DNA of 64,000 nucleotides from Ctenosaura bakeri (taxonomy: Eukaryota > Chordata > Lepidosauria > Squamata > Iguanidae): the NCBI GenBank assembly GCA_948474755.1, contig CAOLHI010000389.1, forward strand, positions 310,001-374,000, in the 5' to 3' direction. Positions 34,701 through 43,700 of this stretch are shown in pieces; within the stretch, counting starts at the first letter, position 1, and the number at the start of each line of letters is the position of its first letter. The notes under the pieces were generated by a model that was given only the letters and a program-made list of their open reading frames with translations, was not told the origin of the DNA and made no database searches. The translations under genes were made by a program, and so were the position numbers.

Positions 34701-37700
34701 TTACACAGACATGTAACCAAGGAAAAGGAAACATTTGTTTTTTGACTCTGTATGATTACCTTCTGCACACACATTACACAATATTTTAGTGAATGCTGTA
34801 TTGCCTAATATAAATAATGCTTCACAGGTTCTGCTATAACATCTTTTGGTGACCGAAAAACAGAACTTTCCAGTGCATACCAGCAGAGACCTCTTGTTGA
34901 TGTGGTGTATAACCCATTCTATATGCACCACCAGCCACCACCACTCTCTCCAGAGTTGGCTCAATGTTACCCAGAAAAATTGGACAATAGGAGACTGTAC
35001 GGATCAGGTAAAAAAAAAGCTGCAGTACTACACAGTTTTTGCCATGTCTCTTCACTGCCTGCAGATGGAATAAACTGACAGGAAGACTATGTGGTCCAGA
35101 ATATAATGCTTCTTTTGGATGTGAATGAGTTTGGTTCAGAGTCCCTATGCAGCCTTTTGGAGCACTTCTTTCTCCACTTTATTAAAACAATATGGCTGTG
35201 AGGATGAAGCTTGGAAGTTCTCTACATGAAGTGTGACATAGAAAGAATTGCAAAACATACAGTTATTCCAGAAGCAGTTAAAACAGTGTTTCTTCTTCGT
35301 GGTCTCTGTGCCTTCATACACTAGGAGCTTTAGCGCCTGCGCGGTAGCGTTCGGAAACTTCTAGAGCTTGTTCGCTTGGCGGGAACCCCTCCCCCACGCC
35401 GGTACTGCGCATGCTCCTCCCGCCGAGCAACGGTCTCTCCTCAGTTCTTTCTCGTCCGCCGCCGCGTACGGAAGGTTCTTCAGTTTGTTCCTCTCACGTT
35501 GTGCTTGGCTTGCTGTTTTTCACGGTTTTACGGACTTTCGGGCTCGGTACCGGCGAAAACGCCGATCTCGGCGCTACCGAGGATCCCGAAGCTGTCGGCG
35601 GCTGCCAAGTCAGCAAAAGGATCCTCGACGGCGAGGAAGGCTGAGGCTCCCCTTACGGAGACGCCTGCTAAAAAGCGCCCTGCTCCGGACGGAGGCAAGG
35701 GCAAGGAGAAGGAGAAGAAGAAGAAGAAGAGGAAAAGAAGCGCTCCCCGGCTGGGGACGTTCGACCTCCTACTCCTCCTCCTACTCAGCAGCCTTCCAAA
35801 GGGCGAGGCGAGTCCGTCGATCTCTCGGACGATGAGATTGAGGACGTTCCCCAACAGCGCCCGGACTCGCCTGTGGCAGACCCTCCAACCCTGGTGGAGG
35901 AGCGCCACCGCCCTCTTAGCCGTCGCAGGTCGGCCGACCTGCAGCAGAGAGAGCCCTCTGCTTCTCCGGAGCGGCGTTCGACCTCCTTTAGGTCCCGGTC
36001 CCGCTCTTCCGAGCGTCCGGTGGCCTCGCCGCCTCCGAGGGAGACAAGAGAGGAACAACCTCGCTCGTCTGCCTCCAGATACACCTCGGCGTCCTACGTG
36101 GCCAGGTACGCGAGGGAATCTGAGTGGAGAGAGCGCCCGGCCTCCTATCGGTCGCATTCGCCATCATACCGGGATCAGTACCATCGTGGCCCGAGTCGCT
36201 GGGAGACCTTCCGGAGGTCCCGGTCACCTCGTCGACAGCGCGAATCGCGCTCGCCTAGAGGGGACGAGGCTCGGTACCGTCGACGCCGAAGCCGATCTCC
36301 ATCGGACCGCCGCTCCTTCAGCCGCTCTCCCTCTCCTCGATATCATAGGGCGAGGGAGCCTTCACCACGGTATCGGGCGATATCGCCACCTCCTAGGGTC
36401 ACGGCAACGGCGACGCGCCCTACAGAGTCAGTGGTGACTGAGCGGGCTACGACGACGTCAGCCTGCCAGACTACCCCGGTCACCACCAAGAGGGTGAAGT
36501 CAGTAGTCAGCCATCCCAAGCGGGACGCTGCTGCTACCACCGCCCCGGCTGCGGAGAAGCCTAGGAAGGCAACACCTGCGGCGACGAAGGAGCCGGAAAG
36601 CGAGCGGCGAGAGGACTCACCGAGCTCGGAGTCGTACGACTCGAGTGCGGAGTCAGAGGTGTCTGAGGCGGCCTCCCAGGAGTCTCCTCCGTTGGGATTC
36701 GGGGACCCGATCCCAGATTCTGCTCCAGAGGACGTCCACCAGTTCTCTGCGATGCTGCTCCGCATGGCCACTACCCTCGGCCTTAAGATCGCCGATGCGG
36801 AGCCGGAGGACGACGATCCAGCCTTCTCCGTCTTCGAGGAGAAGCGACCTTCCACGGCCCCGCTGCCTCTCCTGCCCCGGGTATCCAGACTGGTGAAGGC
36901 CGCCTGGGATAGACCGGCCTCGGCTCAGCCGATACCGCAGCGGTTAGAACACCTCTACAGGGTGCAGAAGGATAACGCCGGTTATCTCTTTAATCACCCT
37001 GTACCGAACTCTGTGGTCGTCGAGTCGGCACAGACGAAGGGCTCCGGCAGGCAACACACCACCCCGCCGGACAAGGAGGGCAGGAAGTTGGACGCCTACG
37101 CAAGGAGGTTCTATTCAGCTGCCTCCTTGCAGATCAGGCTGTCCAACACTCAGGCTTGCCTCGCGGCATACCTGAAAAAAGTGCTCGATCGCCTGCAACC
37201 GGCGATGGAGGCGGTACCGGAGGACATCCGCCAAGCCTCCTCCGTGATCTTCAATGAGGCTATCTCCATCGCTCGGCACCAGATGGCCTCCTCCCGGCAC
37301 GCAGTGGAGATCGCCTCCCGGGTCATGGCGGGATCCGTCGGCCTCCGCCGCCATGCTTGGCTGCGACCGGCCGACATCCAGGAGGACACCAGAAGGAGGA
37401 TTGAAGATCTCCCCTTCGACGGTGAAGGCCTATTCAATTCGTCCACAGACGAAGCTTTGGACAATCTCGTCAAGGCGAGACTGACCGCAAAAAAGATCGG
37501 GCTGCAGCCGGCCACGCAGGCCCGCAGGGCCTCCACCTTCCGCCCATCCTGGCGACGATCTTCCACCTCGTCGTTCCAGCGTTCGGCCCAGTCTGGACAG
37601 TCGAGACCGTCCTCCGGCTCATCGGCCAGACGCACGATTAGGCGGCGCCCGGCTTCGTCGAAGAAGTCCTCCTCCGAGACAAAGTCTCGGTTTTGACGTG

Positions 37701-40700: not shown

Positions 40701-43700
40701 ACAGGTTGCTTACCTGTAACTGTGGTTCTTCGAGTGGTCATCTGTGCCATCATACACACCCGCCCTTCCTCCCCTCTTTCTCAGGTCCCTGTAGGTTCTA
40801 CGGCGGACGACAGAACTGAGGAGAGACCGTTGCTCGGCGGGAGGAGCATGCGCAGTACCGGCGTGGGGGAGGGGTTCCCGCCAAGCGAACAAGCTCTAGA
40901 AGTTTCCGAACGCTACCGCGCAGGCGCTAAAGCTCCTAGTGTATGATGGCACAGATGACCACTCGAAGAACCACAGTTACAGGTAAGCAACCTGTTCTCT
41001 CAACTTTTGGCCCTCCTGATGTTTTGGATTTCTGGTCTTATAATCCCTTACCATTGGCCATGCTTGCTAGGGCTTCTGGGAATTAAAGGAAAAAAACATC
41101 TGGAAGGCCAAAAGTTAAAAACCACTGATACAGTATGATGGTCTTGGATTCTGGATACTGTATCCCCAGAGTCTTCTATAGTAGACACAGATATAGGTAT
41201 AGAAGAGATCCAGCTGGGGTGTTATGAAAGGACAACTAATACTAATATAGTTTTATTATTGTATTTTTAATATCAGGCATAGGGAGAGAATTTTGTTGGC
41301 ATTTTCTTCCTCATGTACCAAAATAACCTAGCTAGATTTGAATGTCATGCACCTCCACTTGGTTGGGTGGGAATACCATTTATGGATTTGCCTAAGGTAG
41401 CAAAGTGTCTTGGACTGAGCTGCAGATTAAATAGTACGCCTCATTCTGTTTTCCTTTGGGAATATTCATCCTTTTATTTCTAACAAATCGCACACTTACT
41501 CTACAGTTAACTAAATTGCAGTTACTCTAAGGGGATGAAACAAGTATATTATTCAGATACATAGGGCTTCCTTGAAACCAAAAGCTGGAGGTTCTGAACT
41601 TGGAAAGTTCTGGGTTTGTTCACACAATCTTTTTAAAGAGGGTAGCACTGCTTAGTGTGGCTTCCTGCCAGGTTATGAAGCCTCTATGAAACAACAAATA
41701 AGAATTTTAGCATAGATACCACAAGACTCCAGTGTATTTTCTTATCCTATGACTAGTTTACATTGCTTGAGAAGAATGATCTAATGTGATAATTTGAGAA
41801 GGCCATAATATGCTCAATAGAAGTAAAGTAATTTTCTCTGTGGACACATATAAGGGAGAAGTGAACAGGAGCCTCCTCAAAGAGCTACCAAATGAGTGTG
41901 TGTATGGGTTACATTTATTTTAATGGGGCTGGCAAAGGGAAATTTTGATCTGAAGTAGACTCATAGCTCTCTGGATGTGCCTGAGATGCATCTGCTCATC
42001 TTTAGGGTGTGACACTATTTTGTCTTTTGTTTCTGAATGTAATCTCTTTACATGGCTTTCTTAACAATCTGAAGTCTACTACATATGGTATATACTGTGC
42101 AGTTATATGTGCAATTACCTGAGATTTCAACAAGTGGTCCCCTTTCTGTTCCTCTTTTTAGTTTGTGACTTACGGAGCAGCACGTTGCCAGGCTCATCTT
42201 CTCTAAGCCATTCTATGTTTGATCTTACAAGTCCACCCCACCGCTTTTTCCAGGCAAGTTCTTCTCATTTATTTACTTACATTTACTGACCTTCCTCACA
42301 AAGAGACAGGCAGAAATGTGTTGTTTTCTTTTGTAGCATTAATCTAATAGTTGAAATGCTTAAAAGGCCAAGCTCTTTTAAGAATTTTGTGCAGCTGGTG
42401 AATTGCTATATAAATTATTTTCTCCTCTTTTAAAGTCCTGCTCCACTGATTCCAAATGAATTTCATGCTTGGCTGTTTTAGCAGAAATTAGAATGTTCAG
42501 CAAAGCTTTTGGCATCTAATGTCAGTATCTAAGTAGGATAAATATTTTTCACTAGAAATCATTTTAATGTGCGCTGGAAAATAAGAGAATATATTTTTTA
42601 AAATTGACACTCTCTGATCACAGCCTGAGTACACCAACAAATTCCAAAATACCTGAAAAGTATAAATATTGGTCACTCTACCTGTTAGGTATAAGTCACG
42701 TAATTGATTAATGTATAAGAAAAATTGGGAGTGAATAATTAGTCAGCCTGTTCCTTATTTACTGTGGATACAAAATTTCCTGGAATTTTCTCAGTTATGC
42801 TGATCTCTAGCCACTTTTGTGATGAATGAAGTTACTGATACTTATAACTTTGTGCATTTCTTTCCTGATCACATATCCTTTCTTTTCAAGGGATGCTTAC
42901 AACGTTTGGAGAAATGTATAGCAACAGCATGATACAAAATTGGTTGCTATTTTTGTTGCTGCTGTAGACTGCATTCCTTTAAGTTGTCAATGCTGCTTTG
43001 TCCCCATTGACTTACATGGGATTTAAACAGCTTTGCTGTAGGCCAGACTGTAACTAAATACCTTTGTTTAGCAGATTTTCTCACTTTTTGGTGGCATTAA
43101 TGGGTGGGAAATAGCCAGTCACATTCTTAATAACTCTTACTGTCAGGTCTGTCCGGCAGTGAAATGTTCTGCCTCGGAGTGTAGTGGAGGCTCCTTCCTT
43201 GGAGGTTTTTAAGCAGAGGCTTGATGGCCATCTGTCGGGAGTGCTGTGAGGGTGTTCCTACATGGCAGGGGGTTGGACTGGATGGCCCCTGTGGTCTCTT
43301 CCAACTCTGCATTTCTATGATTCTATGATTCTACTCCTTACTCCTTCCTTGCCATTAGGAGAGTGATTTGTTCTTTTCTGCCTTCTGACTCATGGTGACC
43401 CTAATGTTAACCTATCATGGGGTTTGCTTTGCAGAACTTGTTCAGAAGGGGTTTATCTTTGTCTTCCTCTGAGGCTGAGGGGTGACCTGCCCAAGGTCAC
43501 CCAGTGGGTTTCCATGGCCAAGCAGGGATTCAAACCATGATCTTCCAGCATCCTGATCCAAGACTCAAACCAATAAACCACTCTGCCTCTAGGGGTATGA
43601 TACAATGATAGGTGGTCTTACAGTGATGTTTCGGTCTTGTTTATTAATCAGACTGTTGCTTTTCCTTGTAGCGATATGATTCAGTGTCTAGTGTTCCAAG

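Follow-up and report, generated by a model that had tools for sequence, protein, structure and literature searches.

A very recent, probably non-autonomous DIRS1-like insertion in a TC2N intron of Ctenosaura bakeri and a stop-free frame beginning at its gag UGA

A 64,000-nucleotide (nt) stretch of the genome of the squamate Ctenosaura bakeri (contig CAOLHI010000389.1, positions 310,001 to 374,000 of the forward strand; here called the window, from whose first letter all positions are counted) contains a DIRS1-like retrotransposon at 35290-40998, in sense orientation within an intron of the gene TC2N. We consider it very highly probable that this copy belongs to a large DIRS1-like family with recent activity and that it was inserted very recently, by tyrosine-recombinase integration of circular DNA. 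In this scheme, an RNA would have been copied with the junction region guiding the ends, the circle would have been closed with the core CTT, the recombinase would have crossed this circle with a target triplet of the NTT type, no target sequence being duplicated, and about 374 bases including the gag start would have been lost either during reverse transcription or after insertion. This scheme takes its replication steps from published models; observed here were the element ends and the sequences at the junctions, from which the core was deduced.

Inverted repeats, a circle-junction region, reverse transcriptase (RT) and RNase H, a methyltransferase-like region and a tyrosine recombinase are present (Table 1). 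The terminal repeats, predicted to be nearly identical, match exactly over 135 nt (35314-35448 against the reverse complement of 40812-40946), and the internal region copies both outer ends as in DIRS1 elements, matching 35290-35327 at 38 of 38 positions through its left part (40661-40698) and 40939-40998 at 60 of 60. Ngaro and PAT elements carry split direct repeats; membership of either group was rejected, as the long terminal repeats are here inverted. The gag-like open reading frame (ORF) matches the Pfam model LAP2alpha (PF11560; E 9.5e-6, 25.7 bits against a cut-off of 25), while the whole gag of one sibling copy scores 24.9 bits, just below that cut-off, and no gag homologue was scored in a protein search. 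The matches of the pol ORF to RVT_1 (E 2.2e-21) and RT_RNaseH (E 3.6e-7), together with an RT tree, place its RT and RNase H with those of DIRS elements. Of nine DIRS proteins compared with the methyltransferase-like region, six are 49.6-56.6% identical to it, in a shifted frame from 39242-39272 onward; the Pfam Dam match in a sibling's pol is weak (E 0.03). That a tyrosine recombinase takes the place of a DDE integrase is indicated by a match of the recombinase ORF to Phage_int_SAM_1 (E 2.2e-5) and by alignment with an Anolis sagrei protein (39% and 54% identity in two frames), in which HSTR and the terminal Tyr are aligned. The predicted retention of RT, RNase H and recombinase motifs was also confirmed: YLDD, TDAS..E..TDN..ADALSR and R...HSTR...W..Y were seen, in what we presume to be their respective roles.

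The same genome (1.905 Gb in 8,006 contigs) was searched with a 601-base query, giving 1,819 first-look candidates, of which the best 40 were scored; 20 siblings were fetched from the 39 scored copies other than the window copy. The window copy and these siblings sit in 21 distinct flanks, all with the expected ends. On the left, the base preceding a constant TT varies with the flank; on the right, CCTGTT is followed by CTT in 15 copies, CAT in four, CGT in one and CTC in one, the window copy. A flank duplication of at least 3 nt is absent in 20 of the 21. Constant ends and variable flank bases thus point to the 3-nt core integration without target duplication that is typical of DIRS1. These ends and the junction AAG would fit a crossing between a circle core CTT and a target triplet of the NTT type, as in the integration model with a circle core set out in passages of PMC3266345, and the empty target of the window copy may be deduced as GTG-TTC-TCAAC. 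A 24-nt inverted repeat pair (92%) at 41002-41116 adjoins the right end of the copy and is probably another small element beside the insertion site.

Several measures bear on the age of the insertion. The siblings differ from the window copy by 0.40-2.64% substitutions, and pairwise divergence among the aligned copies ranges from 0.25% to 3.78%, with a median of 1.52%. Against the 20 siblings, five substitutions are private to the window copy, each turning a CpG into TpG or CpA, and from these an age of some 0.3-0.9 million years can be estimated (assuming 1e-9 per site per year, with or without a tenfold CpG rate). The terminal comparison gives no mismatch over 443 sites, 60 of them in CpG, which sets a 95% upper limit of 2-10 million years if the rate is assumed to be 0.7-1.5e-9 per site per year. 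The observed/expected CpG ratio is 1.01 inside the element versus 0.16-0.25 in its flanks. The youth claimed in the original prediction is therefore supported by the few private substitutions and by the low divergence among copies. Its claim that such copies are rare was not borne out, given 1,819 first-look candidates, the abundance of siblings of about 6.08 kb and the length of those fetched (5,792-6,085 nt, 18 of the 20 exceeding 6,040 nt). The prediction had also set recency against the finding of many old copies with stops; the copies did prove to be many, and those sampled are young, as their median divergence indicates.

The siblings also show how the family has been maintained. Judged by the motifs tested, the frames of gag, RT-to-methyltransferase and recombinase are each continuous in 5 of the 21 copies, and copies with unbroken frames therefore exist. 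Variants common to at least two copies lie mostly at third codon positions (19 of 23 in gag, 20 of 22 and 5 of 9 in the recombinase, 21 of 33 in pol), whereas single-copy variants are spread flatly over the three positions (27/40/33 in gag and 53/58/58 in pol), stretches around frame breaks being omitted from these counts. This pattern suggests that source elements are under purifying selection and that copies decay neutrally after insertion.

The window copy itself had been described as near-complete, which does not hold. It lacks a segment of about 374 bases that is carried by all 39 other scored copies and by all 20 fetched ones; the 601-base query is contiguous only in the window copy and is split by extra sequence in the other 39. 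The segment measures 373-375 bases in 14 of the 20 fetched copies, the other six not matching the flanking probes exactly, and it comprises the end of the leader and the beginning of gag, with its AUG and nearly 100 codons that are Cys-rich at the start. In what remains, the first AUG of the gag frame stands at 36752 and that of the pol frame at 38079, and the start of the recombinase has none nearby. The three single-base slips noted earlier do exist, one in the GAA tract (35700-35740) and the others near 39.27 and 40.24 kb, the latter two being private among the copies compared. Because the gag AUG is deleted and the frames are broken three times, autonomy was rejected for the window copy, which, to judge from its sequence, is probably non-autonomous and incapable of transposing independently. 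Two of the 20 fetched siblings, L032 and L035, have internal deletions of their own in pol (about 246 and 290 nt), so that internal deletion is a repeated event in the family.

The window copy lost its segment cleanly, and past the gap its inner gag frame continues, which would also be expected if the missing 374 bases were a spliced-out intron and the window copy a processed, fully coding form whose leader ATG is supplied elsewhere. However, no register of the 4-nt TCGG repeat shared by the breakpoints provides a GT start and an AG end, and the segment contains the gag AUG and the Cys-rich N-terminus. Splicing was therefore ruled out as the source of the loss, a deletion or a reverse-transcription jump being the likely cause, and we regard the intron explanation as highly improbable. 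We give even less credence to domestication, in which the ORFs of the window copy would serve the host as a part of TC2N or as a new gene. The GC-rich, long open frames, the sense orientation and the proximity to an exon could all be read in this way, and mammals have co-opted a DIRS gag as LAP2alpha (passages of PMC4495291); however, the gag AUG is lost, the frames are broken at three places and the private mutations are CpG decay only. As far as can be seen, the window copy is an ordinary intronic passenger. Some observations do weigh against a recent, recombinase-mediated insertion from a young family. One of the 21 copies has a 9-nt match between its two flanks, and a search of solved-structure sequences with the recombinase gave no relative. 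Sampling the best-scoring copies biases the apparent youth and similarity of the whole family upward, and the single-base breaks could in part be assembly errors.

In an RT tree of 32 rows, the element has squamate and turtle relatives, and the smallest well-supported set holding the window copy comprises 14 rows, itself included (97/95), of which the named members are all lizards and six are unnamed. DIRS-like proteins of Varanus, Sceloporus, Anolis sagrei and Pogona fall in this same set with the same visible domain order; their identity to the window element is at most 53-54% over RT/RNase H (57% over a 230-residue part), which marks the latter as a distinct family. DIRS-1 of Dictyostelium comes from a host very distant from lizards, and to our knowledge its gag is not of the LAP2alpha type. 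It likewise has gag, overlapping pol and recombinase ORFs, inverted repeats and an internal complementary region, as described in passages of PMC5633606. Closer comparison is possible with AcDIRS1 and AcDIRS2 of Anolis carolinensis, whose published sizes are 26/140/26/40-58 and 26/136/28/39-60 (PMC3266345, Table 3). By these sizes, the conserved repeat of 136 and the junction of 39-60 in AcDIRS2 compare with 135, 38 and 60 in the window copy, and AcDIRS2 likewise has a long ORF overlap; the junction deduced for the window family, AAG, is the same as in AcDIRS1. Set against these two elements, the window copy has 5.7 kb owing to its deletion, and most siblings have 6.05-6.09 kb. The same paper reports 775 DIRS1-like sequences in 42 families of A. 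carolinensis, so that such elements are already known as common in lizards. The window copy is an ordinary, young and defective member of a prolific lizard DIRS family.

The arrangement of the reading frames deserves separate consideration. In all 21 copies gag ends in CGG TTT TGA, followed by C or T, and pol sits in the +1 frame relative to gag. Beyond the UGA, the gag frame remains open for 975 codons, through pol to the end of the recombinase, in four of the 21 copies; in the others it extends over 27-878 codons (637 in the window copy) and is broken by lesions of their own. The pol frame attains its full 637 codons after the gag stop in six of the 21. No AUG starts pol or recombinase conventionally, and the long frame has internal AUGs from 38756 onward. 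When the synonymous codons of pol were shuffled 5,000 times (37698-39263, 522 codons), the long frame held a mean of 10.1 stops versus none observed, and no shuffle was stop-free. The third frame of pol was as expected (14 stops versus 14.4), and gag, used as a control, showed no significant depletion (P 0.10 and 0.16). Among the three reverse frames of pol, one likewise had few stops, with 15 versus 23.7 (P 0.0016), which indicates that codon junctions are not random; the test was therefore repeated with the codon-junction dinucleotides kept. This stricter shuffle weakened the statistics in the same direction, giving a mean of 5.4 stops and none of 1,000 samples at zero. Even the 352 codons before the first AUG of the long frame contain no stop, versus 6.6 expected (P 0.0007) or 3.6 under the stricter shuffle (P 0.014). 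The coding of pol thus does not account for the open frame. Within pol, the amino acids of the long frame are not conserved, only its openness, because the variable third positions of pol are the first positions of the long frame.

Other possible signs of recoding were less informative. No stable RNA structure that might act as a 3' frameshift stimulator was found in 37697-37800 (z +0.59). An F-[DE] dipeptide at the start of pol was considered as a nucleotide-level signature of frameshifting: 89 of the 120 listed matches (785 in total) reach this region, and the 14 of these that rank among the best 20 include 10 with the dipeptide, the other 75 only 7. It is ambiguous, and the evidence that it gives is weak, since a sea-urchin protein model carries F-[DE] in an apparently single gag-pol frame and the neighbouring residues are partly alike. 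A 1,882-codon frame in one sibling, taken up as a possible loss of the gag UGA, gave no support, the UGA being present and the frame stemming from the sibling's own breaks.

Distant relatives share much of this layout. Seven contigs in bacterial assemblies hold a DIRS-like RT, and the five with strong matches (L001-L005) were used; these are filed under bacterial genomes (a mussel symbiont, Breoghania and a proteobacterial metagenome-assembled genome) and presumably represent contamination from eukaryotic hosts. No useful DIRS was found among viral contigs, phages and plasmids searched for DNA of relatives. In L003 (gag end CCC TGA A) and in L004 and L005 (GAT TGA C), gag ends in UGA, pol lies at +1 and the recombinase frame follows right after the UGA, with overlaps of 671-697 codons that hold no stop versus 15-18 expected (none of 3,000 shuffles each). 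In L002 the gag frame continues into pol, and the recombinase frame begins directly after the aligned UGA and contains no Met in 994 codons, its overlap having no stop versus 17.8 (none of 2,000 shuffles). L001 differs, with a TAA gag stop and another frame order, and the full layout is thus present in three contigs, the recombinase half in one and neither in one. Under the stricter shuffle, mean stops fell to 4.1-8.9, and zero-stop samples per 1,000 numbered eight for L002, none for L003, two for L004 and one for L005. L002, L004 and L005 resemble one another and belong to a single assembly, so they do not count as independent cases. Before its first AUG, L003 is stop-free for 153 codons (P 0.0017; stricter 0.009), whereas these stretches in L004 and L005 are too short to discriminate (P 0.29 and 1.0). 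The long frame is depleted of AUG in L002 (P 0.0075) and L004 (P 0.033) and shows no such depletion in the window copy, L003 or L005.

We tentatively propose that the single gag UUU UGA may act as a double switch, and that, given L002-L005, this could be an old and general DIRS strategy; we regard this as plausible, if short of probable. Ribosomes would pass the gag UGA at some rate, a +1 slip giving Gag-Pol and readthrough of the same codon giving Gag-recombinase by way of the 975-codon stop-free frame. A published list of +1 sites includes UUU UGA and CCC UGA but not GAU UGA (passages of PMC3500957). Genes with UGA-dependent +1 frameshifting of the antizyme type, and gag-UGA-pol elements such as Tca2 (passages of PMC2194720), likewise close their first frame with a stop that is the proposed point of recoding; in contrast to these, two outcomes at one stop are proposed for DIRS, from sequence only. 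The overlap of the pol and recombinase ORFs was already known (passages of PMC3266345, PMC6681497 and PMC5633606), and the recombinase ORF is reported in one paper to be frameshifted at times (passages of PMC3783388). No paper linking DIRS to recoding at the gag stop was found in the open literature, most subscription papers lying outside the search, and DIRS is not mentioned in the first 300,000 characters of the recoding review PMC5009743. Alternatively, this family may obtain pol and recombinase through splicing to subgenomic RNAs, through internal initiation or through a -1 shift that leaves pol at a later point, an explanation that we likewise find credible without thinking it probable. 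The AUGs inside the long frame, the different order in L001 with its TAA, the lack of stable structure after the stop and the unconserved long-frame amino acids within pol would all accord with expression of this kind. However, it leaves aside that the long frame is stop-free before its first AUG in both the window copy and L003, and that the recombinase frame of L002 has no Met.

The identity of the host gene rests on nine hand-joined exon translations, which matched proteins mostly named tandem C2 domains nuclear protein (120 listed of 495 matches); the best of those listed are from squamates at 80% (Elgaria, Anolis and Rhineura), none exceeding that value, so that neither the host species nor a near relative is represented among those listed. 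The predicted sense placement between two coding exons of TC2N agrees with the exons that flank the element, and 282 bases separate the element start from the end of the upstream exon.

Table 1. Positions of the retrotransposon, its parts and the neighbouring TC2N exons in the window
Feature	Position	Strand	Evidence or remark
TC2N coding exon upstream of the element	34828..35007	+	Splice signals, translation and TC2N matches; donor GT at 35008
Left recombination core, hybrid TTT	35288..35290	+	First base target-derived and TT circle-derived (deduced)
Left terminal repeat	35290..35448	+	Outer 24 nt match junction region; inner 135 nt (35314-35448) identical to right repeat
Junction of private deletion of about 374 bases	35538..35544	+	4-nt TCGG microhomology, no GT..AG
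Gag-like ORF, 674 aa	35672..37696	+	LAP2alpha-type domain; first AUG only at 36752; ends CGG TTT TGA C
GAA tract with gag frame break	35700..35740	+	ORF switch; common to 1 of 20 fetched copies
pol ORF with RT and RNase H	37485..39443	+	RVT_1, RT_RNaseH; first AUG 38079, inside RT
Gag stop, candidate recoding site	37691..37697	+	Context UUU UGA C; putative effect
Gag frame open beyond gag stop, overlapping pol	37697..39610	+	Stop depletion versus synonymous shuffles
Methyltransferase-like C-terminal part of pol	39266..39610	+	Downstream of private frame break near 39.27 kb
Tyrosine recombinase	39611..40624	+	Private frame break near 40.24 kb; HSTR box and catalytic tyrosine in last part
Internal complementary region (circle junction)	40661..40757	+	Reverse complement matches the two outer ends exactly
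Right terminal repeat with right extension	40812..40998	+	
Right recombination core, hybrid CTC	40997..40999	+	Deduced from 21-copy comparison
Next TC2N coding exon downstream of the element	42162..42253	+	Apparent GC donor (CCAG|GCAAGT)

Other repeats were observed elsewhere in the window. A short self-complementary family at 7841-8020, 9073-9288, 11219-11420 and 63829-63922, with copies of up to about 180-215 nt, one of them perfect, looks like a hairpin-type non-autonomous DNA transposon. Positions 1-785 and 22733-23504 form an inverted pair that is 84% identical over 790 nt. A short interspersed repeat, with copies about 70-79% alike, occurs at 12518-12751, 43383-43570, 50775-50971, 52216-52436, 1225-1412 and 9483-9816, one pair standing in tandem at 9467-9808.

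In summary, this squamate has seen recent DIRS activity, and 21 separate insertions allow the recombination ends of the family to be read. The pattern of the reading frames matters more than the insertion itself. In the literature passages searched, no explanation was found for how DIRS polymerase and recombinase are produced, and the overlap, which starts precisely at the gag UGA and holds no stop, provides a concrete hypothesis for how both may be expressed.

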